A DNA stretch of 64,000 nt, taken from NCBI GenBank assembly GCA_905250025.1, contig CAJNOJ010000015.1, forward strand, positions 620,001-684,000, written 5' to 3'. The notes below the pieces were generated by a model, which had not been told where the DNA came from, searched no databases, and worked only from the letters and a program-made list of their open reading frames with translations. The DNA is from Adineta ricciae (Eukaryota; Rotifera; Eurotatoria; Adinetida; Adinetidae). A program made the translations under genes and the position numbers. Below, one piece after another: positions 23,530 to 44,771 of the stretch (its first letter is position 1; each line of letters begins with the position of its first letter).

Positions 23530-26500
23530 TCAATAATTCAAAGCGCATATGAGCGCAACACCGCGTTTAATCCAGTACTTTTGTGGTTTCGATGAAGGTA
23601 CTTCGATTGTAAACACGAAATTAGTCGAATGTCCTGTTGTTGATAATGTACCAGCACGTGTCAATGTTTTATACACAGGGCACATGTAAATACCCGACGT
23701 TGGAACTTGTCGATTTTGTTCTGGTTGTAACCATATCACTGGCATCTCAGTGAACAATTCCTTCGGTCGGGATTCTCCGAGAACGTGTGCTGCTTGATCC
23801 CATCGGGCACCTTCGACGTACAGACCTCGGATATAACAACCATCTGTCGGTGCGTGGGTGATATCTTTTACCGCTTGTTTCATTACCTAGAAGATAGAAA
23901 TGGTTTTTACTTGGTCACGAAAATTTTTTGTCTACATACTTGAAAACCGAAACTGACAGTATCAATTGAAACGACGAATTTTCGAGCATAATTTTGAAGT
24001 GTACCGGTAAGAAACGCCTGTGGAAAGAAGAATCCACTAATCCAAAATATTGGCGGAATGCCATTATCAACCCATGTCTGAACGAATTCCACACGTTGAA
24101 TCAAATCAGTGACCCATGATGCCAAAGGTTTCAAACTTGGATAAGCCTAAAATCTTTCGTTTTCTATCACCGAAGAAAAAACGCATGTCGAAACATACTG
24201 CTTTGCTCCACATGACCGGTACTGAATTGTTGAATAAACTTTTCGACATTTCTTCCAATGCTTGAGAAAGTACCACTAAACCTTTCATAGCTTTGAGCAG
24301 TTCTTGCAAAGATGTGTGAATAACATTCAACAATTTGTTGTATCTGAAATAAACAAGGAATGATTGAATGAAACTCAATGTTGGAATGTAGATTTTTTTG
24401 CTTACCGAATAATTTCTTGGGTTAACACAGTATTCATTGACTGAAATTCGGAAAAAATGATCGTTTAACACAATAAATAGTTAATTGAGAAAGGACTTCT
24501 TTTTCGAACTGCTTGACTCAGTGAAATGTGTTACACATGCTTTCTACTCAGATTTGTTGCTAAGCGTTACCTGTTCGTACAAGACCGGATATTTCTCCAT
24601 TACTGGTGCTAATGGTATCGGCTTTGGTACACGCGAAAGAACATCTTTAGCTAATTTTTCGATTACAACATCACGATTTTCACCCGCCGCCGCTGTTTTC
24701 GGTTGTAATTCAAGTAAATCATTCAATGTACGATACGTTTCATTTTGTGCAAAAGTAACTAAAAAGAGACTATTTTCAAGACAAATTTTCTTTATAATTA
24801 AGCCTTACTATTCGCATTATCATGTAAGCCAAAGATTTCTGGTGTATCGTTAATGGGTAAACTGCGAACATATGCAAGATATGCTGGATGCTCAGAAGTG
24901 GGTGGCAATTGATGGTAGATCTGTGATTCATCGTAACAATAATTCGAATCGAGTACCTTTGGAGCATAGAAATCATCGAGAACATTCATGACACAACGTC
25001 GATCCCAATCATCCGTAACACGACCACCTATATAAGAATAGAAAATGAGTCTTACCATCGTCTTTCTTATCGATTCCACTTACCATAGTTGATTTCACCA
25101 GCTGTATATTTTAAGACCTACGAAAGCGGAAAGATATAAACTTGAATTCAATAACGAAATTTCTATACTTTGTAAGCAATTTCTGTATATTCCATCAAAA
25201 ACATTCGTAATTGACTCATACATATACGTAGATCACCATCGGTGAATTCATACGGAATATTAAACCCGAGTGGACCTGAAAAAAATTGATCTATCCTAAA
25301 CTGAAATCAGTCGAATAACTTACCGAACTTTCGTCGTTCAAGTAGAACAGCGTGGAACAGACAGAGCGATAGAAGTAGATGTTTGAATTCATCAACCTAA
25401 GTTCAAAATGGGCAAATGACTTAGTGTGTGATCGAAGCATTTTCATACCTTTCCAGTGCATGATGTGAGAAAATCGTCGTTAAGCGTGACATATGATCGC
25501 AGAAGATTTGCTTTGATACCGCGAGGTGGTTCAACTGTCATCTTACTTCCATTTTGTAAGATCATCACAGGAAATTGAGGACTCGGCATACTTGTTAACC
25601 ATAATCGGAAATCTTTGTGCACCTGTCAAATGAGAAGTATAGTCAAATGAGATTTTCTCTCCTTTTTCTTCTGCTATCTTATGATTCTCTATACGATGGA
25701 ACGAGCGAGAAGAAATCATTATAAATCTCTTCTATTTCTATTTCTCGGATATTTGTCGCTTGATAGATCAAATGATTTAATAAGCTTCACTCGATAGGAA
25801 AATATCGATCGAATAGAATTCACTTCGCGACATCGACATATTTATCTTACATGGTCTGGATCGACTTGTTCGACTAATCGTTCTAAAGTTGGCATCCATG
25901 ATGGCGACAAGTGACAATTTTGAAAAAACACCCATTGTCCTTTTTCCATAGCTGCACGCATCATTGCTTCAGCTCTTGGGCCCTAACAAAAATCAATGTA
26001 TGTACGAAACTTTCTCGTTTTCTTTCGTGTTTTTTTTAAAAATAATCTCTTCGTACCTGCCCTTGACCAAGTGAAATGGTGTTGAGACGTTTAGCGAATT
26101 TCATTTCTTCAGCAAACTTGTACAGATCAGCAGCTGGATCTGTGCCGACAGATAAGACAAAGATCAAAGGAGTTGTGGCTGACGAATCACGAAAGACAAG
26201 ATGTAAATCCGCCGTCTATACATAAGAAGAAGAAAAAAATAGATTATTGATTGATATTATTCAGATACAATTGACACTATCAGCCAGTTTTGCATTTGCC
26301 TGAGAATTTCTGTCATTCGCAACAAGAAAAATCTCTTCATATATCAATGTAGTTTCAAGAGTGATATATCAGTTCGGTCGAAATCGATGTGTCGCTTTTG
26401 ATAGATCGATAGATCGATCAATAGATCGTGTACGTACTTGTGGCTCAATGAATTTTTGACCGAGATTATGAGACACGAAATCTTGCATTGCATTTGTCAC

Positions 26501-29500
26501 TTTGTCAGGACGAATACATTTGAGGAACATGATTTTTTGAAAGTCATCCAAACGATTAGTCCATTCTTGAGGTAGATGAGCTCTACGATAAGACACATCA
26601 ATAAATAGAAGAAAAACTAATAAGTTCATGTCAAATCATATGCCCATTTGGGATAGGCATAAGTAGCAATCGAAAAAGTAAATAGCTGCTCCCCGAGGAA
26701 GAATATCCGTTCTTATATCTGTCTTCTCGTTACTATTCCATTCTTTTTTTTTTGCTATATTATATAAAAATGATCTCATGATCATCGTCAAATACGACTA
26801 TAAAGCACGTCAAATATAGATGTCTGAGAATGCTAGGAACTCTTCTCTCCCTCTGTGTCTCTCTTTCCTCTATCGTTAGCATTTATGTGCATAAGCAACA
26901 ACATACTATATCTTATTCTCCTGATATATCTTCGAGTAGATCTGAGTAAAAAAACTTGTATTCGATATCGTATCGGCATGTTAACATCAATATCGATCTT
27001 GACAGGTAATAAAGTTTCTTCATCTTTTGCATTTAGAATAAACATCACTGATTCACTTTCCGTTTTCTCCGGTCACGCTCGTCTTGCTCATTATAAAATT
27101 CAATAAAGATATCTAGACACATATATATATTCTCTTCACATAGTTCATCATTGGCATAATTATTATATTAGACTTCTTGTCAATTGCCAATGAGAACAAG
27201 TATATGAGAAATACTATCACGATAGACAACGCACGATAATATTAACCATCCACACAATCGCAGTCCTGGTTTATCCATTGACTCAATGAACTAATCTTTG
27301 CGAGCGTTGTCTATTGATTGAGTCGACGAAGAAATAAAGGAAAAGAATTTTGTGATTCCACATAGTACGGTCTATTCTATTTGTTTTCAAATATATTGTT
27401 TCTTCCTCCTACACATACACATCTCGAGATTACCTTTGAAGAAGTCAATTGATTTTCACATTGACAATTTCTCATCTAATCTCGCAGATTTTTTTCATCT
27501 AACGCTAAAGAATTAGAACATTAACAGGCAATAGGTTTTTTTTTCTTAAGAAAACAAATATGCCCTGTAGGCTAAATGTAGTTGATGTGTTCAACATTAC
27601 ATCTACTGACAACCAACTGATTTCTTTTCTTCTTCATCAATAGGCAAGATGAGGTAGGAGATTCGTACTGTTCTTAATGCATCTTCCATTACAAATTAGA
27701 TAATGTCGACTAACCCCCACTGAATTGAGTAGTGCACATCTTTTGCCTAGATCTTCTTTTTATTCGAATTTCACTTATTTTTCTCATAAATTTAACAAAC
27801 AGACGAAGAAGGCTACTCGTTGACTGAGTAGTTCGCTCGAAGCTGTTTTCTGAGTTATTAGTTTTTCTCTTCGAATCTGCGCTCTTTCGATTGATAAATG
27901 ATTTGACTGATCATCCGTACGAACGAATAAAAGTATCTTTATATATATATATATATATATGCTTGTACTTACTTTTCAGGCTCACTACTGTCGAATATTT
28001 GCTTGTAATCTTTGATATAGGTTTGGAAATTTTGTGCAAAACCTTTGAACGCATTTATTGATTCAAGCGTAAGTATTTCTGACCAAATACGTTCCGTTAT
28101 CCACTTGGGAGCGGGATTGGGTACATCGACAGGACGCGTTGAGCCACCAGCCAAGAAGAATCGATATTCGCTCTAAATAGAACATTCATAATTATTAGTT
28201 TTAGATAAACAAACAGGAATATTATCATCATGTATAAACCTTCTTGTTTATTAAACGTCAATGGATCGATCCGTTCGAATGCACTACATGATATCGAAGT
28301 CGCTGGTTACCGTTATGTGATGTTAACAATTTGTATATTCGGCGTCGTATGTAACATACTTAATCTATGTGTTCTCGTTCAACGTCGTCTCAAAGAATCT
28401 CCCTATACTTATCTCACAGGCTTAGCATTAGCTGATATGTTAACATTAATTTCCTTTTCACCTGTGTCAGTCGTGCGCGGTGATTACATTCGGCATGAAG
28501 ACATCTTCTTTACTTTAACGCGTCTCGAAGCGCGACTATTCGTACCCATGGCAAATTACCTCGGTCAAGTTAGTATAATGATTACCGTTGCATTGACCGT
28601 TGAACGTTATTTATTCACAACCTATCCATTACGTACACAAAGTTTTTGTAAACCAAGTTATGCACGTCGCGTTATTGCTATTATCATGGTTCTATGCGGC
28701 CTGTTAAATCTTCCGAGATTTCTAACTGAAACAGTTGAGAAGAAGATTGATACCGAAACGAACTTCAATTCATCAAATTGCGTCATGCATCCATTTCAAA
28801 TCCGATACTCGTCAACGAATACTTCTCATATTGGTCAATGTTTTTGCGTAGTCGGTCACACAAAAGAAAGTTTCCTTCCATTGAAAAATTATTATTACTA
28901 TACTATGTTAGGTATCAATCAAATAATTCCATTCGCCATATTACTTTGTTTGAATTTAAGTTTAATCGCACGTGTACAATCATCAAATCGTTACACGTTA
29001 GCAGAATTGATCGCCCGACAACAACGGAATCTCAATTCAACAACCGCTGGTGTGAGTGCTGCGGCACAAAAACGTCTTCGCGATGAACATCGCTTAACAA
29101 AAACTCTCGTGGCTGTTGTGATCGTCTTTCTCATATGTAACACATTTACCATCATCTCTTACCCTGGCCTCGTACGGTTCTTAACCAAAAAGAAATATCC
29201 AAATTATTTCTACGTTGGTTTTCGTATACAAAAGTTAATCACGAACATTATGCTGTTATTAAACTATTCGATCAATTTCTTTTTCTATTGCGCATTTAAC
29301 GAAAAATTTTTGTCAACGTTAAAGAAAACCTTTCGATACGAGAAATTATTCTGTGGTCTCATCTCGTCGCCACGTCGAACATTACCCTCCGCTATGTCAT
29401 CAGCAACATTACAATCGACCATAACTCAAACCAATCAATGTATTTCCACGTATCACTTACGCACAGAAGAATCAAGTCGACGACGAGGAAAACAAGAATA

Positions 29501-32500
29501 TAAGCCGATCTCGGAAAATGATCTGATAACAAATAACGATTTATAAATCGAAATTGTCAGTCATTATTGAATAGTCAAACGTTGAGATGATATAGAACAG
29601 TTCTTATTACGAAATGCATCAAATTAGACTAGCATAATCATCATGTCAAGTTCAATTTACATATGAAAAGACAAATATTCTCTGTTGTTTGCTCGTTCTT
29701 GCCTTGATGAAAGAAAACAGAATCGAACTTACCATTTGGATTTTCTTTTGATTCATTAATATTCGTACAGTTAATAAGAATGCAAATAATAATTTATGTT
29801 TTTCAAATAAACTTCGACAGACATTGCAATAAAGACTAAACGTGAAATAATCGTTGATGTTCTTGATGCGATTTTCCAAATTATCTAGAAATTAGCAAAA
29901 ATTTTTGTTGAGAAATAGCAATCGAAAGAGAAAAACATTCTACCTGCTCGTGGTGCACTTTGAATGCTGGTTAAGAAGATGTTTGTGAACCATTCTAATG
30001 AGTACTGATACATTGGATCAACATTTGCTAAGTCAGACACACAGAAGAACAAGATTTGTGTATTCACGGCGACAGGAACATATTCAGCGCGAGTTATATC
30101 AATATCCTTTTCTGTCTGTTCGGCCGCTTGCATTTTCGTCTAAGTAAAACGACCGAAATAAATCTTTGTGCTACTCAAACAATAACCACAAACTTTGATT
30201 TCTGTAGATTTAGCTTTTGATGCCTCCAGAGCTGTGATTAATTCGATATCATCGACCGGATTATCACTTGTACTTAATTTTTCCAAAATCGTATCTTCTA
30301 ACGCTTTCAGTTCATTGCGCATAGTGGCATTGGATATAATCAATGTATTTTTCATTTCTTCCAAATCAGGACGCTCTTCAGCAACAACACGTGCTAACAT
30401 TTGATCTTCCAAACCACTGAAAACAAACAAATGATATTATTTTAGGGAAAATGATCTTTATTTTCACCTTGGGGATAACGTGAAGTTCACCAATGTTACT
30501 TTAACCGATATTTCTGGCGTATAGTGTGGATTCGGCAGTTTGGTGGTAATATAAAAACGAAAATCATCATGGTACGGTATAGTAGCATCACCCAGCTTGA
30601 TTACGGTGCTGCCCGATTGGCGGAAAGTCTGTTTAAATGAAAAAGAGTAATGACTTTAAACGTGTTATTTAAAAGATTTACTTGTCGTAGTAGAACAGGT
30701 TCGAGTGCTAAATAGAAAACACAAGTTTCTCTCAAACTTTATGAAACTGCGTAAGACGTACCAGGATCTATATCTGTTCCTACGTTTTCTAGTAGACATG
30801 GTTTACCGAATCGAATCGAATTTTCTAATGTTCGTAAATAATCACGATCCGACAGTTTCATCACGTCTAGGCCAGTATTTTTTTCCTAAAAGTTCAATAC
30901 AACAACAATGAATTTCATCTCTCATTCATAGTTTCACTTATACCATATTTTTAATCCATTTATTTGCTTGTCCCTGTGGATCGATGAATAGTGGCCAACG
31001 ATTTGAATATTGAACGATCACACCGTTTTGTACGGATAAGTTATCCTTTGGTAAGCCAGCTAATTGCCAATTACGAATCTTGACAGCATCACCCAAAACT
31101 CGAACTAATTCTGGATTGTCGGAATGTGGTACGTTGTATGCAGTTAACTTTGTAATCCATTCTCGGACCATATTTTCACGGTATTCAGCCTAGAATGAGA
31201 GAGTGGGCTTTGGATAGAGGAGAAAAACGATTTTTGTTTAAATATTTACAGTAAACGGACCAAGATATGCAATAAATCCCGAACAAACGAGCACATCGCC
31301 GATGACATTTCCTAGAAAATTGTCCAACATCGCAACATTTTCCTGCCAACGAATTTTTTCATCGCCCAAACCAGTTGTTAACTAATCAATATCGGAAACG
31401 TCTACATATTCATATCCATATGAAGAAAAGTCAAACTTACTCGTTCTGCCCGCGCAATTCGTTGATTACATTCGTCAACTTTAGTTTCATATTCTGTTTT
31501 CTTTCGTACAGCATCTTCATATTTGACTTGTAATGTTCTTAAACCTTCTTCCAATTTTTTCAATTCACGTTTCTTTGTCGCCAATACTTCTTTAACAATA
31601 GCTAATTCAGCTTCAGCGTTTGCTAGCGCTTCTTTACGTGGTGCGACTTCTTTGTTAATCATATAGAACGCGTACATTGCTCGACACCACATGCATAGCG
31701 ATTTGCACGCTTTCGACGTTTTCTCAATCTTAATCGGATCAAAGTCAGGACTATCAATATGTTTTTGTAGTTTCTGTATAACAATTTCCGGAATATTTTC
31801 TTTATCGAACTCTCGCAGTGATAGAAGAAATTTACCGGCGTCAGCTAATAAACCACGACCAGGTTCCCAATAATCATCTTCTTTCTTGCCTGGCTTATTT
31901 GGTACAGGCACCTTCAGTGGTTCAACTTGTTTTAGAATACACACGGCTTCCATTGTTAATTTGACACCTTGCGGAGGTCGTTGTAGAGCACGTACTTCGT
32001 TGATATCATTTTTCGATAGAACTTCAAGACTTTGTAATGCAGCTTCGAGTGCAGGCATAGCTTCTGCAAGCCGTTCTGATGCTTCGCTGGCGATAGCACG
32101 AGTTTCTTTGACTTTCTTCTGTACTTCTTCTTCTTCGCTGGCTACTTTAGTTTTGATTTCTTCCGTGCTTGACGTATCTTCGGCGATTTTCGCCATGGTT
32201 TCGTTCGTTTCTTGTACAGCTTGATCAAGTAAGGGTAGCATTTCATTTAATTCAACACGCAATTTCGCCACGTCTTTCTCCGTTGATAACAATTTGTCCA
32301 AACCTGTTTTCGTACGTCGTTTAGCTAACACTAGTTCATCTTTTTTCTTGCCGAAGATTTTCGAAAAGATATTCAACAGTTCAAGATAAGATGTCGGTGT
32401 AACATAGTTATGTCGACTCATTTCTTCACGATATTTTGTTGTCATCAAAGCTGCAGATTGATGGATCTCTTGACACAACTTGACTAGACCTTGGACAACT

Positions 32501-35500
32501 TTTGCATCAGCCTCTAACGTTGGCATATTGTTCAAGTAAGTCTCTGAGACAGCTTCCAAAGCATCTTTTGGCCATTCAGAATACCAATCGATTGTACAGC
32601 AACTAGAAAAAAAGATACACGCTGAGGTATTACACAAATCTTCTGCTGTTAACCTACTTCACCAAAGCCGGAAATTGACGAAGTCGAGCACGAAAAATTT
32701 CACCAATAGGACTAAAACAAAGCGATTGCTTCTTGTTTCGACGAAAAGATTTTTAATCTAGACTTTTACCTCATGCAAACGACAGTGTGCAGATTTTGTC
32801 GCACGCGTTTTGTATAAGCTGAATAAAGATTCGTTTTAGTTGGTGGTAGTCCAGCTTCGGATACAACCGGTTTCATAATAGTATAAATTTGTTCGAGTTC
32901 ATCAAATTGATAAATATTTGGCACATCACCACTATTTAGGATGTTGTTCAAATCTTCCAAAAACGATTCGCTTTTGATCTACCAAAGGAAAATCATTCAA
33001 AAGAAAGCGAACATATTCATTTATTTACTTGTGTATCCGAGAAGAGAAACACCGTTGGAGTGTTACGAAGACCAGCGTGTAGCATAAATTTTCTCAAGTC
33101 ATCTTTCCATTCCGTCATACCTATGATTGCAAAAAGTCTTTCCTGTATCAATCCATATATCATCATCGAATTAACTTACCATAACTTTTGGATAGTTGAA
33201 TTGAACGAAGCTCATATTCCGAACTGCAATTAAAAATGTTTTCTTTTTATCTATCGAACTCTTTCCAGTATAGACACCTACATGAATGTGGCAAGTCGTG
33301 TGAGTGATTGTCGACCAGAACCGCCTACACCTAACAGCAGTGCATTACCAAGCGGTTGTTTGATAACACGTATGATTCTTGAAATATGCTTCATGGCATC
33401 CATAAATAACACCAGATTCATTTTAGCAACATTGATTTGATTGTACTCTTCTAAGTATTCATCTAAACGTTTCTTCATCTACAGAGAAAGAGAAATATGA
33501 ACATTTTCTTTCTGATCTATTTACCAGTTTCACGTCGTTCAGTTCTTGATAAGATTTATCAGCTGTTTGAGCGACAAAGTCACCATAGAGTACAGGTTCT
33601 TGTACAACATTCTCGAAATTCATACTGAAATCCGATTTCATATGTTCAGCAAGTAAGTTACGGAACCAATCTCGATCTTCATCATTGATCAAGCGATCTT
33701 GAAACACACGACAGTTCTCATGGTACCATAAACGAAGTAGACTCTCGACATTCTACAAGACAAATCCTTATTTCAACAAATCCAACTTGACAATCTATCT
33801 CACATCAATTTTCTTCGCCTCCATCATCAACATTCCTTGAAAAACTTTGGACAAATCTCGCAGATTGAACGTGTAATGAGATTTGCTCGGTGTTGGAAGC
33901 AACGATGCACAAATTGTTTTATAAACTTCAATCGACGACATGACCAGTTTCTCGCTAAGACCCAAGACAAATTCGTTTTGTCTCGTCCACCAGTTGAATA
34001 TCGTTGAAAAGATCTTTCTCATGCTATCGTTTTCCAGTTCAGTAAATGATAAGAAATTGAAATGACGTGTCAACCGTGGTGTAACTGGATTACGACCACC
34101 ACTAAACAAAGAGGGAATTTTTGTCGTGAACAAAGACCTTTCTTATCAAATGATTAGATCCCCTTACCCTGGTGGACCCATCGCACAGATGAAATTAATG
34201 TCAACTAATGTACGGAATTCGCCGACAACTTTTCGATCGTACCAGCCTTTAAAGTCCATGTATTGTCGAATCAATTCGATTGGTGGTTGAGCACCGTACG
34301 TTTCCAGAGCTGGCATGTTCAAATCATCGATAAAGAACAGAAACACTTTGCCTAATGGTGGACCGTAAATACCACGACGTCTTCAAAGACGAAAAACACG
34401 TATGAAAACTTTCAAGAAATGCTCTTTAGTCAACAAACCTTTTATCTAATTTTGAATCGATTAAATCTTGCGTTTGATTTGCATTTGTTTTCGCTGAAAA
34501 GACAATAAACTCAGGACTGAATTCTTTTGGCATAGAACGCGTTAATTTATCAGCAACTGTTAATGTCTTGCTCGTTCCTGTCGGACCAACGCAGAGCACT
34601 GGTCGATCCATTCGAAGTAACATTTCGATAATATGTGCATTACGGATGTTATCAATAGTTGGCACAAGTATATCCGAAAATTTCGCATCGTTCGATATTT
34701 GAAATGGCGGCAAATCGGCTAACCAATGCTTCCATCGTGGTTGACGTTTCTTACTGTCGTCACTGCCTTCTTCTTCATTAGCTTTTTGTTCTTCTGTTGG
34801 CTGAACAATACCACCATCATCGAACACATAATCGTAAACGAGTCCCTCGGCAGGAATCGCAAGTTTTATCTATGAATAAACATTGAATAAAGAAAAACGG
34901 CAAGTTATCTGTGAGGGAACCTACCGGATTGTGTACGAGTTTTTGACGTAACCATTCGGAGAATTTTCGACGCGAGTCATTATCACATGACGCACCAACG
35001 GACCAGATAAGTGAGAAAATGAACCACGGTTCGATAAGTTCAGTAACACGTTCAGCTGCTTCGGGCGGAGCTGGTTTGTCGGACTAAACATGACAAGATA
35101 GAAGCATGGATACATATGAACTATCGAAAGATATGTCAAAGTCAATAAATAAGGACAAAGCATAATGCAGAAGCAAAAATCAAAAACAATTTAATTTGTT
35201 ACTAAGATAATTAATAAAGTAAAAAACGTAGCAAACTAATATGACTTACACGACCCTGACGTTGTCCTTTCTAATGAAATAAAAAGTGAGAAAAGATATT
35301 ATTTATGTGAATGTTTTCTTATTTTTGTAATAAGAACGTTTAAAAAATATCTAAATGAGATTTGATCTTTAGCTTACCTCTCGCGGTCGAAATGGTTGAA
35401 TGAAACAATCGAGCATTTTTATCAAACTAAATGTTAAATTACTATCATATGTCGGAATAATTTCTTTCACATTCTTTCGTATGAATTTCAAGGATGGCTA

Positions 35501-38500
35501 AAGAAAGATAGATCAGTAATTAATTTGATGGAGCGAAGATGAACTTGTTGATTTACTTCGAGAAAATTAGCGAATAGTTGATTGATTTGTTCGTAGTGTT
35601 TAAAGATTGCATCGGGTAACTTTTTCATCCAACATTCGATGAATGGTTGTAGACCGAGAATTGAAGGTTCTAAGTAGACCATACCACAACGAGATACAGT
35701 AGCAGGTGATGCTTGAGAGAGATCAGCAACTTCAAACATCATTGTCATCGCCTGAAAAGAAGTTGTTTGTTTTGTATATTAGGAGATTCACCTTTTCTTT
35801 CAAAAAAATCATACTTCAGTCATTTTGATAATTTCACCACTACTTAAACATAGTTTTTTGTTGTCGTCTAGTACTGTGTTCATATTTTCGATCCATACAG
35901 CATCGACAGGACCTAAAATTCGTGGAATATTCTCGATCTCCTCTCTACAAACAAAGCTTCAAATTTACCGTCAAATAGATACCATCGTTTATCATCATTT
36001 TCGGCAGCTACACCTTGTCGCATCAAAGTAGAAAGTATACCATCAGTCCTAAACGTCACTCATATGTTGCAAATGGCTGTTTATTGAAAAAAAATTACCA
36101 TTCATGAGTTAATTCATCGAATGCACCGTACAATTGACCCATAGTAATGGATTTTGGATTGAGAACATAGGTGTGCACGGGTTTGAACGGTGAGCCGGCC
36201 GGATTGATTTTTCCTTTCATATGTGTCATAGCTATTTGTAAAGATTCGTAACTCTTCGTTTTGCCAGAGCCTGTTGGACCGACAAGCATCAGACCTAGAC
36301 AAGCCAAATGTACTAAGTAACTTCTATGATCATGGCATTTGTAACTTACCGTGCCGGACAATGGTTGTTTCGAATAACTGGATACATTTGAGTAAAAATC
36401 CGTCAACATCTTTCAGATTAAGTTGACGACATGCATGACGTAAACCTTCTTCCAGTACTTTATAATCGATAGGTTCCTCTCTACAAACACATGCATTCTT
36501 TCAGTTACTATTACTTAATAACCCAGTAAGTTTTACTTAATCTTCGGGAACAGATCAGAAACGATACCAGTAAATAGTTTCAAATCATCTTGCAGAAATT
36601 TCGGAATGTTAACATCACGAATAGCTCGCAGACAAATTAAATCCTACGGAGTTATAGGAAGATTATCATACGAAAGAAATCGATCGATGACTAACTTCAT
36701 TCATGTTTGGATATTGTCGTTTGAGATTGCCAGCTGCTGAAATGACAGATTTGACGGCACGCATACCGAAATCGTAGTGATCTTGTGAACTCAATTGTTC
36801 GGATGATAATTTGAACGTTTGAACAATCTTTTTCGCTAAAGGTTTAGCATCGGAAAAGCCAAACGAAAACAGCGAATTCTCAGCAATAAGACCATAGTCA
36901 GGAACCATCATAGCTAAATGATAAGTAGTTGAATTCCGTAGAGGCGTACTACTGCGTCACTTACCGACTGGTCGAAATAAAGCTTTAAGATTGTCGGGTA
37001 ATTCAGTACTAAAATACATCATAGTTCAAGAGTAACCACGAGAATGTCTAACATACCGTCCAGCATAACCTGGATTCATTGTAATGAAAACAGCACATGA
37101 GGATTTGAGAACGATTTCTTTGCCTTCGAACATGAATCTCTCAGCCTAGACGAACAAAAACACATTTAGAACACTAGTTCGAATAAATCCTTCGAAACTA
37201 ATAATCAGCAAAAAGAAATCAAGTATGTTAGTAGCGTAATCACTATACACGAGTTCGAAGAGTTAGTTGAATCGTCAGCACCTGGTTTGCCACCACCGAT
37301 AGAACTTCAATGTTGATACGCTATCATAGATTACTAATCGTCATCGATGTTCACTTTCATTTAGTATACTAACGTTAAACTCATCCAAACAACACCAACA
37401 ACCACAACTGATAAGATGTATATATATATATTGAAATCGGTTATTATCATAAGAAAACAAATCACTTCACCACACCGATCATCAAATTACCTTTTGCATT
37501 AAAGCCTGATTAATCACTTGAATCTGTTGAGCAACTACCGAAAGTACTTCAATATCGATTCGATTAAATTCATCGAAGCAAGCCCATGCACCAGCACTGA
37601 AGGAAGAAAGAAAGAGCAGAAATACTTAAATCTGAGCTAAGAGATTCGAATCACAAGACAGCCCATCAGAATCACTCGATTATATCCCAAATGAATCACA
37701 AGAATAAAGAAGAAATCTACGTTTTTGTGTATGTGTTTATACCCGTAACTGACATGCACGAAGAATTGTTGAAACTTGGTTAGCAACAACACTCAAGACT
37801 TCAATATCTATACGATTGAACTCATCAAGACATGCAAATGCACCAGCACTTTACATGTTGTGATGATATACGAATAAAAATTCGTTGTGGATATACAATG
37901 CGTAACTGTACTCACCTTGCTAAACCGCAGAAAAACTTGGCCATAGCCTAGAATAATAGATAAGTATTCAACTAAGTTTGAATAGACATTACCATAAAAT
38001 CTAATTGATCAGAACAGTTAAACACGACACATTGAACAGCCATCGCTTTAGCTAAATCTTTAGTTGTTTCCGTTTTTCCTGTACCGGCGGGCCCAGCTAA
38101 AAAATAACTCGGCTATCAAGTCAATTCTACGGAAGTTTTGATTTTACCTGGTGCACCACCAAATTTCAGATGTAAAGCGCCAGTTAATGTCAGATAACAT
38201 CGATCGGTCAAAGGTGTAATAACTAAACGTGGTGTATTACCTAAATATTCATAACCATAACGAAATTCTGCGTTGACAGCACGAATGTAGAGATGATCTT
38301 CATTCCAATAATAACGTAGCTAAACAAATCGAAGTAGGATCGTAGTAAAGTTCGTTTTCTTGTATCTTACTTGTGAGATCCATTCAAAATCATTGACATT
38401 CATAACTTTTTCCTCGATGAGATTGATGACCACATCACGTGCGTGTACTTCAATAACAATCAATGCTTTCAATGTTTCACGTGCATTATCAGTTAATTCG

Positions 38501-41500
38501 CCGCGTACTAATTCTCTCAATTCATCCAGCTCGTGTAATTGTTGTTTGTGATATTTCATGATTTCTTTCTTTTCCAAGGCTTCCGAGACTTGTCTAGTCC
38601 AGAATGTTTGCGAACCAGCAACAACGATTTGGCCGGGCCAATACTGTACCCATTGCTTACGTGGTCGCTAAAATAGGATGGAAACACATAATGACAAGAT
38701 TCCATATCCTCTAATTATTTACTGATGTATAGTCGTCTAAAGCATCTCGAATAATTTGTCGCAATGTTTCACGCATGACACGTTCGATTTCACACATCCA
38801 GTCTTCGACATTACCAACAGGATAGATCTCTTTGCGAAAAGCGACTTCTTCTTGTTCAGCAGAATACATTCTCGATATACGCATATCGTCTTCGAATTTA
38901 ACCTACGTCGAAAATGACAAATCCGAATAATAATAACAGATTACGTTCGAAATCGAATTACTTTAGTGATATTTTCGAAACATTTACGTAAATGTGGCTG
39001 TACAGCTTTCGGATCTTTAGTTTGTGACAAAATTTGAAGAAGTTCATCGTCCGACAAGAAATAGAATCGTGGAAATGCCATACGTTTGGTTTCGAGGTAT
39101 TCGCTCAAACCTTTTTGTACTTGTTCAAGTAATTTATTTGCTTCACGTAGGTTGTCACGTAAACGTGCTTCAGGACATAACGAAATTACTTCGGGATTCT
39201 CCTTTGCCTGTTTCATAACTTTACGCCAGATACGTTCCATTGTTTGATATCGTTTCGATTCTACAGGCAACTGTCGTATGATATCTTCCGATGAAAAGAT
39301 TGGTTCGAGATACTAAAAACAAAAGCAATTAAAAGCAACCAGTCCAGGAAGATAACACTCACCAGCCATGAACGCTGACAGGCAAGCCATTCGTCCAGTA
39401 CTTCTTGTGTAATTTTCAATTTATTCTCCCATTGAGCAATACGCTCTTCGAATGCTTTCTTGAATGGCGAAAACGACATTGATTGTGTAGCAACGATATG
39501 ATCATCGAGCATTTGAGAAATTTCTTCGGATGCTTTGATAATATATGTACCAGTTTGTTTGTAGGGTAAAACTTCGAATCGAATAGGTTTCCATTCTTGT
39601 TCCATTTTGTCGAGTTGTTGTTCGATAGAAAATTCTTTGCCAGCTTTTTCTGCAACTTTCGATATCAAATCGATATGCTTTTGTAAGCCCATCTCGAGAC
39701 ATTTAGCAAAGGTTAGTTCTTTCTTTGGTCGAACAGCCATTTTGACTAATTCCGAAAGCTGAAACAATTCGAAATAAACTTTAGATGAAAATAATATATC
39801 GATCGAAAAACCTACCTCTTCCCAGTGGCGATTGCGCATACCAGGTGCACGTAATGCTTGAATGAGTGGAATTGAAGGTTTGAAATCTTCGATCTGGCCT
39901 TTGATTGTTAATGCTACCAACTGAATGCCTAAGAATAATAAACAAGAACGATGTTAGTCGTCATTGCTCGACAATTTCTTCAAAGTACACGAATACAATA
40001 TCATATATACACAACAATCATGCAATTCTTTACATTCATGCAATGTAGAGTATCAGAAGAGAGAGTCTTTTTCACTGAAAGGTTCTTGTGGTACAAAGAG
40101 CGATGTAAATAGAAAAACCTCGTATATCTGTTGTACCAGGGTCATCAATTTTAGCGAGTAGAACAAATTTCGCTGAAAACATGTATGTGTAACTGAGATA
40201 TTCTCGGAAAAGAAACGTTGCACACTGCATACCTTCATTGTCCGCAAAGGTTTTTATCGATCTGTGCGTGTTTTTGTACCTGAAACGATAATTTTAACGG
40301 ATTCAACAGGAGAATTCAACAGAGAACGTCATACATTTCAGTAACATTCTTTTCGATATCTTCGGCGTTGACTGAAATGATCGGATCGTTCATCCAACTG
40401 TCATATGAACGAAGCCAGTCGGACGTTGTTGACCAGAGGATACGATACGGTTCGAAATCTTTCACAAGTCGGGTTAATTTTTCGTACTAGCAAAGGCAAA
40501 CAAAGGAAATTACTCTTCAGTATTCAAGGTCATTCAATCTACTTACATTTGTAACAGCCAAACCGAGAAGACGTTCGCGATTGTTATATGTTTGTGACGC
40601 TTCGACACATTCTTTCAGTGCTTTGTTCAATTTACGACATTCATTCGCCACTTCATGTGCGCGATCCATACTCATATGTCCCGAAAGACCGGCAACAGAC
40701 ATCTAATTTTCAAAAACAAAGAAAACGTTTGAAAAAATGATGTTATGATAATGAGACGAACTATAAGTTGGTCGATCTTGTCGTTAAGTGTAGCTGTATC
40801 TTGAACTTGGAGCTTCTTAAAACGATCTTCATCTTCCTTATGCTGTTCTTCAACTTGTTCAAGCATAGTTCGAATTTTCCATGGCCATGCTAATACACCG
40901 TACCTTTAAAATGCATCAAAAGTAAGTATGGAAGAAGATTTCTTGCTGTATTCCCGCATGACATACTTCAATCCGAAATCTTCATTACTTAAATTGTACA
41001 TGAATTCATCAAGTACAACATACTCTTCAAGTACTTTTTGAATATCATCCTAGATCATCGAGTGTACATACAACCGGAAACAATGGCAAACAAAATTTAC
41101 TTTTTTATCATCAACTTGTTCGGGAACTGATTTCATCCATTCGCGATGCTCAGAGAGATCTTCTGCATTGTTTGCTTTTTCGTATAACTTTCTTTGAATG
41201 TCACGGAAAGTATCGTTGAGCTAAAGTCCACATTGAAAAAAAAATTCATGTTAGCCGAGTACAATTCATACTTCTTCTGTTTTCGTTCGTGCTTTTCGTG
41301 TTTGACTTGCCAACAAAGCTTCGACTAATGCTTTTCGTTTATTCGACAAAGCTTCTCGCAATTTGTGTGCGGAAATGAAATAAGGACCAATGATGATCGA
41401 AGTTGGAATACTCTTCTCTAATTTGTCTTTTTCGTGAATATGAACTAGAATTTCATTTCGATAATCTTCGATCGATTTTTCCGTTTTCTCAAAATCTCTA

Positions 41501-44485
41501 AAAAAAAAGCATCAACAAAACTCTCATCCTATCAACTTTGCAACGATCGTTTCACGTACTTGATATATTGATCGATGTTCAAATTCATCAATGGTGCATA
41601 TGACTCATAAGCTAAATGATTGACAGGTGAAAACTTTGTTCACAAATAAGATCTATTATTACCATCAGCATAAGCTTTCAACGGAACAAGCGATGCATAG
41701 ACAGCTTTCTGTAATGTTTCTCGCCATTCGATCACTTTCTTTTCTTGTAAAGCAACGGATTCTAACCGTAACATTTCACCACCCCAAAAGATATTTTCCA
41801 TCACATCCTAGAAAACAAGATATGCTCATTGACTTCATCATGATGCATGAGGCGCGCCAGCTACTTTTTCGATTTGTGGTATAGCATGAGTTTGTAAAAT
41901 CGCACGATCGAAGGCACCAAGGATTATGTTTGGAAAACTTTCGTAAGATGTTACGTAGCGTGGACCAGCTTGATCAATAGTTAAATCCAAATGAAATAAT
42001 GGATTCTTCGGTGGTCTAGAATAAGGAACGCAATAGTCAGAGAAGAAATATTGATGTGAATACATACTTATAAGGAGTTGTGATTAAGTCATCTTTGGGC
42101 CATTTGAAGCCTTCTTTCATATCTAAAACTGGCGTACAAGCGTCGACAATCATTCGAACATAGTTTTGGCATGAATCTTGAACAAGAAATCGAAGCGTAT
42201 CTTGCATCATGAACTTCACACGTTCGATAAACGTCTTCAATTTTGATACTTTATATATATGATAGTCTGACTCGTTGATATTGTACCTTCAATTCAAAGT
42301 CTTTCTCAGTAAAATGTGCAAATCTATATATCATTTACCATCCACGGCCAACATCGATGAATTGTGTCTTAATACCTTGTCGGAGATTGTTTTTCCATGT
42401 GTCAGTTAGATACATATGTGTCTAAGACGAGGTGTGCTTTTGTCAAAATCAATTAAACAAATATCGATGGAAACTTACGGTTGATGTTTGATTGACTTGC
42501 ATACTTTCGAATTCATCGAGTTTGACATGTTTTGGAAAATTCTTTTGCAATAAACTTAAATTGTTAACCACATAATCACATTCGGTTCGAACGAGTTTCA
42601 ACGCATCGATCGCTGATTTCGATGTTAACAAGGAAATAAACTAATGAAAAAAGAAGAATTTAAATGTGATGTGATAATTAGGAAAGTTGCCAACAAACTT
42701 TGAATTGATCGAACACTTCATTGAAAGAGTATTCTGGAATGCTAATACAACCCGAACGAGGTACAGGTCGACGTTGTTTGATTGGTAGAGTAATAAACGC
42801 AAAGGAAATCGGATCCGATTGTGTAACATTTTCGAATATCATCGAATTCATCGTACGTGCATAATCTAAATTGACTTCTTCGACAATTGGTGTAACGTAC
42901 TCGTCTTTGCTAAAGAGAAAGATCAGAGTGAGATAATTGAAAAACGTCTGATTTATTCGTACATTGTTTTCGAAATGGCACTTGTTTTAGTTAATTCAAT
43001 CATTCGTTTGATACGCTCGTCGTCAAGTTTACCGGTACCATCGGTGGGCATACAATCAATGAATAATGTTGAGCGAAGTTCAGCTTCAGTACGTTTTCGA
43101 TCATGATAGGCTTTTGCCACACGATCAGCAAATACACGTGGATCTTCAGCTAGAAAATGTAATTGAATACGAGGAACCCAGTAGCGACCATGGGTGCCAT
43201 CAGGTGAATAATTATGACGATGACCTGCAAACACTTTTAATGTGTACGAGAAATTCGAATAGATGTACAAACCGTTCGTAGCAGAGCTTGCGCCGGATCG
43301 TGAACCATTTTCAGCAGCTTCTATTTCTTTACGACTTCGTTTTGTTGAGCGATACATATCGAACACATCATGTTCTCGATCGTCCGGTGTTACAAGCCAC
43401 AATTGTTGTTCCGCATCGTAGTCATGGATACTAACATTATGCCAGTGGAAACGAAGATTACTATCTTTGATATCAGCTAAAATGTTACAGTAAATCATCG
43501 TTAAGAGTTGCTGAGAGAAGACGAGTGCTTACTAATTTGATCAGCAGGTATGTTCGGTAAAAGAGCAACACCGGGTAATGGTTTATTTAAGCCGGTAAAT
43601 GGATCATGGCCTAGCGCAAGCCATGATTCCGGTGTCCAAATTTCGAAATCGGTATCGTCAAAGTAATATAATGGCAAAAATGAATCGAATGGTGCTGGAT
43701 CCTAAAAAAGAAAGTATGTGACCATGATTGATAAATACGAGATCAATGTTTCAATTTTACTTCATTCGGAATATTCAATGTAACAACTTTATCAGCAGGT
43801 ACATATTTTGGCATCAATTTATCTGTATCAATATTTCGTTCCTCGAGTAAACTTGGTAGATCCAGTGATAGATACAGACGTTTTCGTCTACAAAATCAAA
43901 GAGACAGGATTACTCATCCATAACCTGTCGATTCGAATTACCGTTCGATTTCGACTTTTCTTGGTAGTTTATACGGTGCCGTATAGAACGGCATAAAAAC
44001 TTTTGGCTCGTATGTTTTTTCCAAATAGATATCACTGCGTTTGTATTCAGTAGTAAACTCTCCTTCTTTACTATTGGCCAAGATTTGTGCCACATCGATT
44101 CCTTGCAAATCGAAAATACTTGCTACAAATTACGGAAATTCCTTTCAAATTATTGAATTGAACATTTTGAAACGAGCATACCTCGAGCTGAATTCGATAG
44201 ACGAAACGTTTCACGTAGAACGTCATCATGTGCAATTGGAGCTTGTTGTGAAATCTATAGTTTCAAAAGTTTAATGATATCAACAAAGGAAAACATTCGC
44301 TGTTTTACTTGAAATCTGGTGTCGGGATCAATGGTTGCTAGTTCGGAATAATATCCGCGTTCTCGAAGCTCGCGATTTCGCCGACTGCGATCGATTCCAT
44401 CGTCATTTCCAGCCGTACTAGCACGGGAATGTATGGATCGACTAGAATTCTGTCGATTTCCATGATATCCGTTCTCTTGAGGCAT
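23530..44485 (-). CDS. DNAH1: Axonemal dynein heavy chain 1 (inner arm)
   Basis: One gene of about 21 kb with several dozen exons, read from 44485 down to the stop at 23532-23530. The N-terminal tail has DNAH1-type blocks ([65 protein letters not shown]). The motor follows: AAA1 P-loop [13 protein letters not shown] (about 38050-38090), Walker B DEFNRI in three alternative exons (37249-37848), AAA2 P-loop GPTGSGKTK (about 36255-36282), AAA3 P-loop GPTGTSKT (34564-34587, with Ser for the last Gly), AAA4 [13 protein letters not shown] (about 33320-33350), the coiled-coil stalk and microtubule-binding domain (31402-32637), AAA5/6 and the C-terminal domain. It ends in [14 protein letters not shown], nearly identical to vertebrate DNAH1. 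It powers the inner arms of motile cilia. Introns are mostly 50-150 nt; two are over 1.3 kb and one of these holds a GPCR gene. Confidence 0.93.
26592..27972. other. Large DNAH1 intron (about 1.4 kb) without a recognised gene
   Basis: Lies between the exon ending FDSSEPE and the exon starting [11 protein letters not shown]. It has a TA dinucleotide run at about 27942-27960 next to the donor, and no reading frame on either strand that I can identify. The frame at 26855-27106 is hydrophobic at its start but lacks any family resemblance. Confidence 0.45.
28230..29546 (+). CDS. Class A GPCR, FMRFamide-receptor-like, nested in a DNAH1 intron
   Basis: Intronless, 438 residues, on the strand opposite to DNAH1, inside its intron between the exons ending NQKKIQM (about 29732) and starting [10 protein letters not shown] (about 28173). 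Seven hydrophobic segments are visible: TM1 about 28-50 ([17 protein letters not shown]), TM2 with LALADM, TM3 ending in [14 protein letters not shown] (ERY for DRY), TM4, TM5 after [10 protein letters not shown]6 ([18 protein letters not shown]) and TM7 [15 protein letters not shown] (NYSINFFFY in place of NPxxY). An N-glycosylation site lies at NGS (residue 11). The TM7 motif and ERYLFTTYP resemble invertebrate FMRFamide/myosuppressin-type peptide receptors. The ligand cannot be named. The cytoplasmic tail is rich in Ser/Thr and Arg. Confidence 0.85.
   Translation: MYKPSCLLNVNGSIRSNALHDIEVAGYRYVMLTICIFGVVCNILNLCVLVQRRLKESPYTYLTGLALADMLTLISFSPVSVVRGDYIRHEDIFFTLTRLEARLFVPMANYLGQVSIMITVALTVERYLFTTYPLRTQSFCKPSYARRVIAIIMVLCGLLNLPRFLTETVEKKIDTETNFNSSNCVMHPFQIRYSSTNTSHIGQCFCVVGHTKESFLPLKNYYYYTMLGINQIIPFAILLCLNLSLIARVQSSNRYTLAELIARQQRNLNSTTAGVSAAAQKRLRDEHRLTKTLVAVVIVFLICNTFTIISYPGLVRFLTKKKYPNYFYVGFRIQKLITNIMLLLNYSINFFFYCAFNEKFLSTLKKTFRYEKLFCGLISSPRRTLPSAMSSATLQSTITQTNQCISTYHLRTEESSRRRGKQEYKPISENDLITNNDL
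35250..35270 (-). other. DNAH1: DNAH1 21-nt microexon (KGQRQGR)
   Basis: A 21-nt open segment flanked by CATTAG and GTAAGT lies between the exon ending FRPRE (donor GTAAGC at about 35378) and the exon starting [13 protein letters not shown]. Both neighbours are at phase 0, so the seven residues KGQRQGR can be included or skipped without changing frame. The position is just before the conserved [17 protein letters not shown] block. Confidence 0.6.
37249..37407 (-). other. DNAH1: DNAH1 AAA1 Walker B exon, version 3, split by its own 53-nt intron
   Basis: Two parts, 37407-37374 (34 nt) and 37320-37249 (72 nt), separated by a GT-AG intron (GTTAGT...GATAG); the coding sum is again 106 nt with the same phases. 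It encodes [11 protein letters not shown] | [20 protein letters not shown] followed by LRTR. Compared with version 2, three Ala are Cys and Asp after RI is Asn, but the Walker B DE and the NR pair are kept. Confidence 0.7.
37491..37596 (-). other. DNAH1: DNAH1 AAA1 Walker B exon, version 2 (closest to the canonical sequence)
   Basis: 106-nt exon, acceptor CTTCCTTCAG, donor GTAATT, same phases as version 1. It encodes [20 protein letters not shown], then [15 protein letters not shown]. The [12 protein letters not shown] core is what is normally seen in dynein AAA1, so this is probably the ancestral form. Confidence 0.85.
37743..37848 (-). other. DNAH1: DNAH1 AAA1 Walker B exon, version 1
   Basis: 106-nt exon following the exon that ends KFFCGLA-S (split codon AG|T). 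It encodes [20 protein letters not shown], then [15 protein letters not shown], and ends at phase 0 before a GTATAA donor. Its acceptor (ATGTAAAG) has a weak pyrimidine tract compared with that of version 2. Relative to version 2 it has Phe for Trp and Leu for Phe in the strand before DE. Confidence 0.8.
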
Positions 44486-44771
44486 GGCGAAACTTTATAA
44501 TGTTTCGTACAAAATATTTCTTTCTTCTGTTTATACCGTTGTTCAGTGCAAACTAATTTCTTGTTCTCGTTGATTCTATGCAGACATTTGCATTTATATG
44601 TAAATTACGTTGTCATAGTAATGAAATTCTCGTTTCTTCGTTCTCTCAACCAACAAAGATGTCGGTAGCTTTTTGAGTCTTACCCGTCGATTATGTAAAG
44701 GGCAAGAAGATTAAGGTATTGTGGTGTTGATAACATATAAATAAAGCTCGAAGCTGAGTTTTATCTTTTCA
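44486..44771. promoter_or_regulatory. Bidirectional promoter region (DNAH1 / amidohydrolase)
   Basis: 286 nt separate the two divergent start codons, so both promoters must lie here or overlap. No defined element was recognised beyond an AT-rich stretch (about 44735-44750, ATAACATATAAATAAAG) some 30 nt before the amidohydrolase start, which could act as a TATA-like box for that gene. Confidence 0.4.

Follow-up and report, generated by a model that had tools for sequence, protein, structure and literature searches.

The window analyzed here is a stretch of 64,000 nucleotides (C15, positions 620,001 to 684,000) from the genome of the bdelloid rotifer Adineta ricciae, which comprises 130 Mb in 1033 contigs. 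Its minus strand carries a gene for DNAH1, an inner-arm axonemal dynein heavy chain, which was resolved as a single gene by a model based on codon usage and GT/AG splice sites. When compared with solved structures, the 549 residues of the AAA1–AAA2 part of this model recovered three DNAH1 chains first (9d2f, 8j07, and 9fqr, at 956–963 bits), followed by DHC2 of 8glv (813 bits) and DNAH12 (751 bits), which bears out the gene named in the original prediction. Matches to PF12774 were found for the gene in the window, and the scan for further dynein domains was made on its ortholog in Adineta steineri, P0123.

Three tandem segments of 106 nt lie within this gene, each a version (v1, v2, or v3) of one unit of 36 residues, which covers the Walker B strand and most of the next helix (Table 1). 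In the order of the transcript, v3 comes first, followed by v2, and then by v1, which is divided by an intron into v1a and v1b. In all three versions, the first T completes a serine codon (AG|T) and the 3' end is at phase 0, while all five introns of the array have GT..AG ends. Reading through the intron inside v1 is blocked by its length and by an in-frame TGA, as judged by eye. All of these borders had been placed correctly, to the base, in the original prediction, and its flanking exons, given as approximately 37916–37950 and near 37147, are close to the modelled 37916–37947 and 37145. Apart from the intron within v1, these are adjacent homologous exons of equal length and phase, the arrangement expected of a mutually exclusive array. 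No other duplicated exon was found in the gene using 65 exon queries of at least 18 residues; besides the array, these gave only two cross-matches of Walker A, linking AAA1 with AAA2, and two weak matches attributable to chance.

Table 1. Features of the DNAH1 gene and its exon array, in window positions.
Feature	Position	Strand	Remarks
DNAH1 gene model	23562..44492	-	4320 aa with v2; extent approximate, 29900-25800 less certain
Exon carrying the AAA1 Walker A motif	37993..38096	-	From the gene model
Exon preceding the array	37916..37947	-	Ends ..GCA AG, phase 2
Intron preceding v3	37849..37915	-	1/67 positions differ from C92
ATCACAA, post hoc candidate	37858..37864	-	Complementary to two TTGTGAT copies in the v3-v2 intron
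v3, Walker B exon, 106 nt	37743..37848	-	Ends ...ACQLR
v3-v2 intron	37597..37742	-	Differs from C92 at 4/146 aligned positions and in 3 gap columns
v2, 106 nt	37491..37596	-	Family-like through AQQI
v2-v1a intron	37408..37490	-	GT..AG
v1a, first exon of v1, 34 nt	37374..37407	-	From sequence and translation
Intron inside v1, 53 nt, between DEFN and RI	37321..37373	-	Read-through not open
v1b, second exon of v1, 72 nt	37249..37320	-	24 residues; in frame after v2 or v3
Intron following the array	37146..37248	-	Best complementarity with the v3-v2 intron
Exon following the array	37057..37145	-	Starts GCT; hairpin after the helix

The Unit in the Dynein Motor

In dynein, ATP is hydrolysed mainly at AAA1. 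The assignment of the array to the Walker B strand and the following helix of this domain, which had been proposed from the sequence, is supported by the structure matches and by the predicted model of protein P0010 of Didymodactylos (alignment of 28 sequences, mean pLDDT 81). In this model, the unit corresponds to residues 548–583, with the Walker B strand at 552–556 and the helix at 563–581, followed by a hairpin at 586–595. The versions differ most over their last ten residues, which form the C-terminal half of the helix after Walker B.

The relatives considered are the best 120 cluster representatives of the protein search, a list that excludes the remaining sequences clustered with Adineta (15) and with Rotaria (93). 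The W of the motif and both of its flanking alanines are invariant in 120 of these 120 DNAH1-like relatives, and the F before DE is replaced by L only in Brachionus, among the 120 listed. A broader count covered 336 DEFNR segments from 333 proteins, restricted to segments with EVLS in place; W is found in all 336, and the position before DE is occupied by F in 328, L in seven, and Y in one. Only one of these segments, that of Seison, has the ANQ of v1 and v3. Version v3 carries F in the place of the invariant W, while v1 carries C in the place of both flanking alanines. Relatives thus show L or N individually, while the F for W and the W-flanking cysteines of v1 are absent from the DNAH1 set. 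The catalytic DE is retained in every version, as previously claimed, but v1 and v3 alter residues that are otherwise invariant in the 120 listed relatives. The versions provide variants, produced naturally and kept by selection, of a motif that is invariant elsewhere (with W replaced by F, F by L, and Q by N), and may reveal the roles of these residues.

The Array in Other Rotifers and in the Same Genome

The 300 residues on each side of the unit are highly conserved in other rotifers, with an identity of 96% and 95% in A. steineri, 94% and 96% in Rotaria magnacalcarata, and 90% and 93% in Didymodactylos carnosus. In the A. steineri DNAH1 model (P0123), v2 is identical at 36 of 36 residues and is followed by v1b (20 of 24 identical) and then by AERFMF, with exact exon borders. 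The R. magnacalcarata model (P0170) also carries v2 with 36 of 36 residues. By contrast with the FFCGLA of the Adineta and Rotaria models, the Didymodactylos model P0010 has FFKGLA before the unit, which is family-like and ends in TVIQQAQFQR. Of the array, v2 and v1b are therefore present in the A. steineri model, while v3 was seen again only on contig C92, which bears a homologous copy of the locus.

Elsewhere in this genome, 19 further loci for dynein heavy chains were examined using v2, v3, and v1b as queries, out of at least some 33 other places with PF12774 matches, and no genuine second copy of Walker B was found at these 19. The exact DEFNRI pattern has 26 matches in the whole genome, with close pairs only on C15, C92, and C117, although this search would miss split exons such as v1. 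The second copy on C117 (1181–1572, L018), in the Walker B region of another dynein, was rejected as an assembly artefact, because it is a 98% identical tandem of 199 bases beside an N, and is single on the partner contig, C25.

In four other dynein genes of this genome (L006, L020, L021, and L022), the match to Walker B is interrupted close to DEFNR, as an intron would do, at positions slightly different from that of the intron in v1. Dynein AAA1 matches over 63–64 residues were also found at four loci in the prokaryote collection (L026, L027, and L028 of JAIYDP01, and L029 of JAGBLE01), in assemblies filed as Verrucomicrobiaceae and Bacilli MAGs. These matches are uninterrupted, and hence do not represent the DNAH1 gene, and the stretches are probably eukaryotic contamination. 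No relatives were found in viral contigs.

Reading Frame and Splice Sites

There are 12 combinations of the array exons other than one single version, of which nine shift the frame and three (v2 with v1b, v3 with v1b, and v1a alone) leave it open. When no version is included, a stop is reached after 23 codons, and when two or three whole versions are joined, it lies 44 codons downstream of the point where the first version begins. Messages containing two whole versions or none would thus be expected to be destroyed. The original argument that joining two versions shifts the frame, so that only one is usable, holds for two or three whole versions and for none, but not for the three open combinations. 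The frame enforces exclusivity incompletely, then, because the 72-nt v1b joins v2 or v3 in frame.

These in-frame joins are what would be expected if v1b were a cassette of 24 residues inserted behind v2 (or v3), with only v3 and v2 alternating, and the reading of v2 followed by v1b in P0123 agrees with this arrangement and counts against an exclusive choice. A gene finder forced to keep the frame could, however, have produced the join in P0123 in any case. A cassette would also have no use for v1a, which is intact on both copies, precedes v1b with the right phase, and restores with it the full 106-nt unit, while the insert would repeat a helix inside AAA1. For these reasons, the cassette is considered unlikely.

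The strength of the splice sites was ranked against the 76 donors (including those of the array) and 72 acceptors of the DNAH1 gene model. The sites of v2 are ordinary to strong, with the donor at the 87th percentile and the acceptor at the 46th, and the gene model, left to itself, picked this version. The corresponding values are 14th and 1st for v3, 18th and 11th for v1a, and 1st and 3rd for v1b. This pattern would fit a default v2 with regulated v1 and v3, but would also fit rarely used exons; the very weak v1b donor and v3 acceptor, both at the 1st percentile, count against regulated use, and could mean little or no use. Steric hindrance, which depends on an intron that is too short, was rejected as a means of exclusion, given that the introns between the versions are 146 and 83 nt long; introns of approximately 45–63 nt are common in the gene model.

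Selection on the Versions and Their Age

Contig C92 is 94% identical to the window over 1661 bases and holds all three versions with intact GT/AG sites. The exons of the two copies differ by five substitutions in v3, one in v2, and six in v1, and all 12 are synonymous. With the array found again on this contig and its exons changed in this way only, chance is rejected as an explanation. With the transition bias of the introns, a fraction of 0.26–0.30 of random changes would be synonymous, and the probability of finding only synonymous changes is 3.8e-7 for the three versions. Approximately seven nonsynonymous changes per version would be expected at the intron rate, and none was observed. These tests are based on two nearly allelic DNA copies, hence the few changes per version, and the exon substitutions were counted over a slightly shorter region than that of the introns, leaving out four codons with more than one change and the gapped codons. 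All three versions are under purifying selection as protein.

A recent gene conversion does not explain the absence of amino acid changes, given that synonymous divergence is higher in v1 (pS 0.186) and v3 (pS 0.160), both with a pN of 0, than in the rest of the aligned coding sequence (pS 0.108 upstream and 0.104 downstream, with a pN of 0.0082 and 0.0036, respectively). The versions share 24 of 36 residues between v3 and v2, 24 between v3 and v1, and 21 between v2 and v1, and the same codon is used at only 12, 10, and 11 of these conserved residues, respectively. The synonymous positions thus appear to be saturated, which indicates that the duplications are old.

The weak splice sites of v1 and v3, and their changes at otherwise invariant residues, might be taken as signs of dead duplicate exons, that is, relics of tandem duplication that are never spliced. 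In this case, however, the 11 substitutions in v1 and v3 would not all be expected to be synonymous (P 1.4e-6), nor would versions that are old by their synonymous divergence still be open in frame, or v1b be kept in the A. steineri model, and such an origin is very unlikely. The original prediction held that v1 and v3 would be dead copies if they were absent from close relatives and under relaxed selection; v1, by contrast, is constrained, and its second exon is kept in the A. steineri model.

The introns of the array are also unusually similar between the two copies, with differences at 22 of 446 positions, in comparison with 234 of 2484 aligned positions in the introns outside the array (P 3.2e-4). 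The two introns beside v3 differ at five of 213 positions (P 3.8e-5, for a pair picked after the table had been seen), while the intron inside v1 is not quiet (six of 53 positions). A conversion tract could lower the local divergence, yet v3, between its two quiet introns, has five synonymous changes. The quiet introns beside v3, together with the stop reached when two whole versions are joined, would suit poison exons, with the inclusion of v3 or v1 alongside v2 shifting the frame and lowering DNAH1 through nonsense-mediated decay. Poison exons require no coding constraint, however, and it is the encoded protein that is conserved here, which makes this the least probable of the alternatives.

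Complementarity Between Introns

The search for complementary intronic sequences that might act as selectors, which had been suggested as a check, produced a weak result. The best complementarity among 10 pairs of introns was found between the v3-v2 intron and the intron that follows the array (-40.2, z -3.0), with p 0.005 in 200 shuffles, or approximately 0.05 after correction for the 10 pairs, while the other nine pairs gave p values of 0.06 to 0.93. Two repeats in the v3-v2 intron were noted post hoc. The motif GTGATTC occurs three times, and 23 of 2000 shuffles hold any non-trivial 7-mer three times. The sequence TCTTGTGATTC is found twice in the window, both times in this intron (37648–37703, minus strand), and contains TTGTGAT, which is complementary to the candidate ATCACAA just before the v3 acceptor. 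Given the weakness of these tests, docking-selector structures are not claimed here as the mechanism of exclusion.

A Putative Splice Switch in DNAH1

The anatomy of this array, and the selection on its exons, point to mutually exclusive use as the most likely mechanism. We consider it likely that the three segments are regulated, mutually exclusive exons of DNAH1, with one used per mRNA, v2 as the default, and v1 and v3 under regulation. A single DNAH1 gene would thus probably be able to make three versions of the motor. This interpretation is supported by the gene, the site, the coding constraint, and the age of the versions, and weakened by the incomplete enforcement of exclusivity by the frame.

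The splicing of one version into each mRNA would complete AAA1, with differences in the surround of Walker B and in the C-terminal half of the helix that follows, immediately ahead of the beta hairpin. With its splice sites and family-like catalytic part, v2 would be the default, while the use of v3 and v1 may be regulated and confined to certain ciliated cells or conditions, where their weak sites would need activators. Cilia are usually diversified through different heavy chain genes. If the versions are used, a single gene would exchange 36 residues at the catalytic site while the DE stays untouched, and the kinetics of the motor may change as a result.

Possible Counterparts in Other Spiralia

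Candidate cases of the same kind were found in an annelid and in molluscs, all of them protein models. In the annelid Paralvinella palmiformis, the DNAH1 model P0242 has two tandem copies of the 36-residue unit, separated by a linker of 23 residues and followed by LDRFMFEG. A gene finder would be expected to insert such a linker in order to maintain the frame after a 106-nt exon. As in the rotifer array, the copies are in tandem and have the same borders, although there are two versions rather than three, known as a protein model with a linker.

In Octopus sinensis (P0163) and Octopus bimaculoides (P0297), the unit is identical at only 23 of 36 residues, in contrast with 96.3% over the next 602 aligned, in a comparison limited to the unit and the downstream sequence, as P0297 begins approximately 28 residues before the unit. 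The first 15 ungapped windows of 36 residues have 34, 25, 36, 36, 34, 35, 34, 35, 35, 34, 36, 36, 34, 34, and 35 identical residues, and the window with 25 sits on the unit.

The models of Haliotis (P0128, isoform X3) and Ruditapes (P0139, isoform X2) have AMQIMTITRAQ..K (type B), instead of the AQQ.TTI.KAQ found in 15 of the 20 mollusc models listed. The Haliotis unit is identical to that of Patella at 29 of 36 residues and to that of Lottia at 30 (79% over the 600 residues downstream), while the Ruditapes unit matches that of Sinanodonta at 28 of 36 (80% downstream). These units are no more different than the downstream flank, then, and differ only more than is usual for the unit, for which the identity is 35 of 36 between Patella and Lottia, and 34 of 36 between Tubulanus and Lineus. 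Type B in Haliotis and Ruditapes could stem from another gene, given that two DNAH1 models are present in both Babylonia and Pomacea. The repeats in the models of Exaiptasia (P0001) and Acipenser (P0241) were rejected, as the blocks repeated there, at spacings of 335 and 791 residues, are much larger than the Walker B unit.

In a tree of the versions, based on 36 columns and ultrafast bootstrap, v2 groups with Rotaria and A. steineri (97), the only node to reach 95, v1 with v3 (79), and these with Brachionus (60). Haliotis, Ruditapes, O. sinensis, and the second Paralvinella copy form a group (74), as do Biomphalaria and Mytilus (93). The tree does not separate one origin from several for the rotifer and mollusc arrays, and gives no support to a resemblance of v2 to the mollusc type B.

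A tentative proposal, somewhat short of probable, is that across the Spiralia (rotifers, annelids, and molluscs) this DNAH1 exon acts as a splice switch, either ancient or invented more than once, through which one gene would give motors of different kinetics to different cilia. To our knowledge, bdelloids have no sperm, so the switch, if real, must serve ciliary types such as those of the corona, gut, or flame cells. Should the cases in annelids and molluscs be borne out, such a switch would be a recurrent means of tuning inner-arm dynein.

Comparison with Known Systems

No account of alternative versions of the DNAH1 AAA1 Walker B exon was found among the titles and abstract openings listed from the open-access literature, which leaves most subscription journals outside. 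The statement that no such case had been described stands, within these limits, for this site, but not for dynein heavy chains in general, as a mutually exclusive exon has been reported in DHC1, a cytoplasmic dynein heavy chain, in Schistosoma mansoni (PMC3228551). A survey of the human genome mentions dynein once, in its reference list (PMC5740500), and a further paper does not mention it in its main text (PMC3303723).

The DHC1 case resembles the DNAH1 array in having homologous exons of equal length in a dynein heavy chain gene. It involves, however, a cytoplasmic dynein, in which a single candidate exon is paired with a single query exon, the codons are split at the two exon ends, and the exon is different from that of Walker B (PMC3228551). 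The DNAH1 array, by contrast, is axonemal, has three versions with a split codon at the 5' end only and a 3' end at phase 0, and lies at the AAA1 Walker B site.

Arrays of the docking-selector type, such as Dscam and similar genes, are alike in having tandem exons of which one is used, but differ in that the rotifer array shows no convincing competing RNA structures.

The exon clusters of the muscle myosin heavy chain (Mhc) of arthropods, named in the same source, are mutually exclusive, lie in the motor domain, and are said to fine-tune its mechanochemistry (PMC3228551). The Mhc system concerns a myosin, muscle types, and several clusters per gene, whereas in DNAH1 the motor is a dynein, and a single cluster was found.
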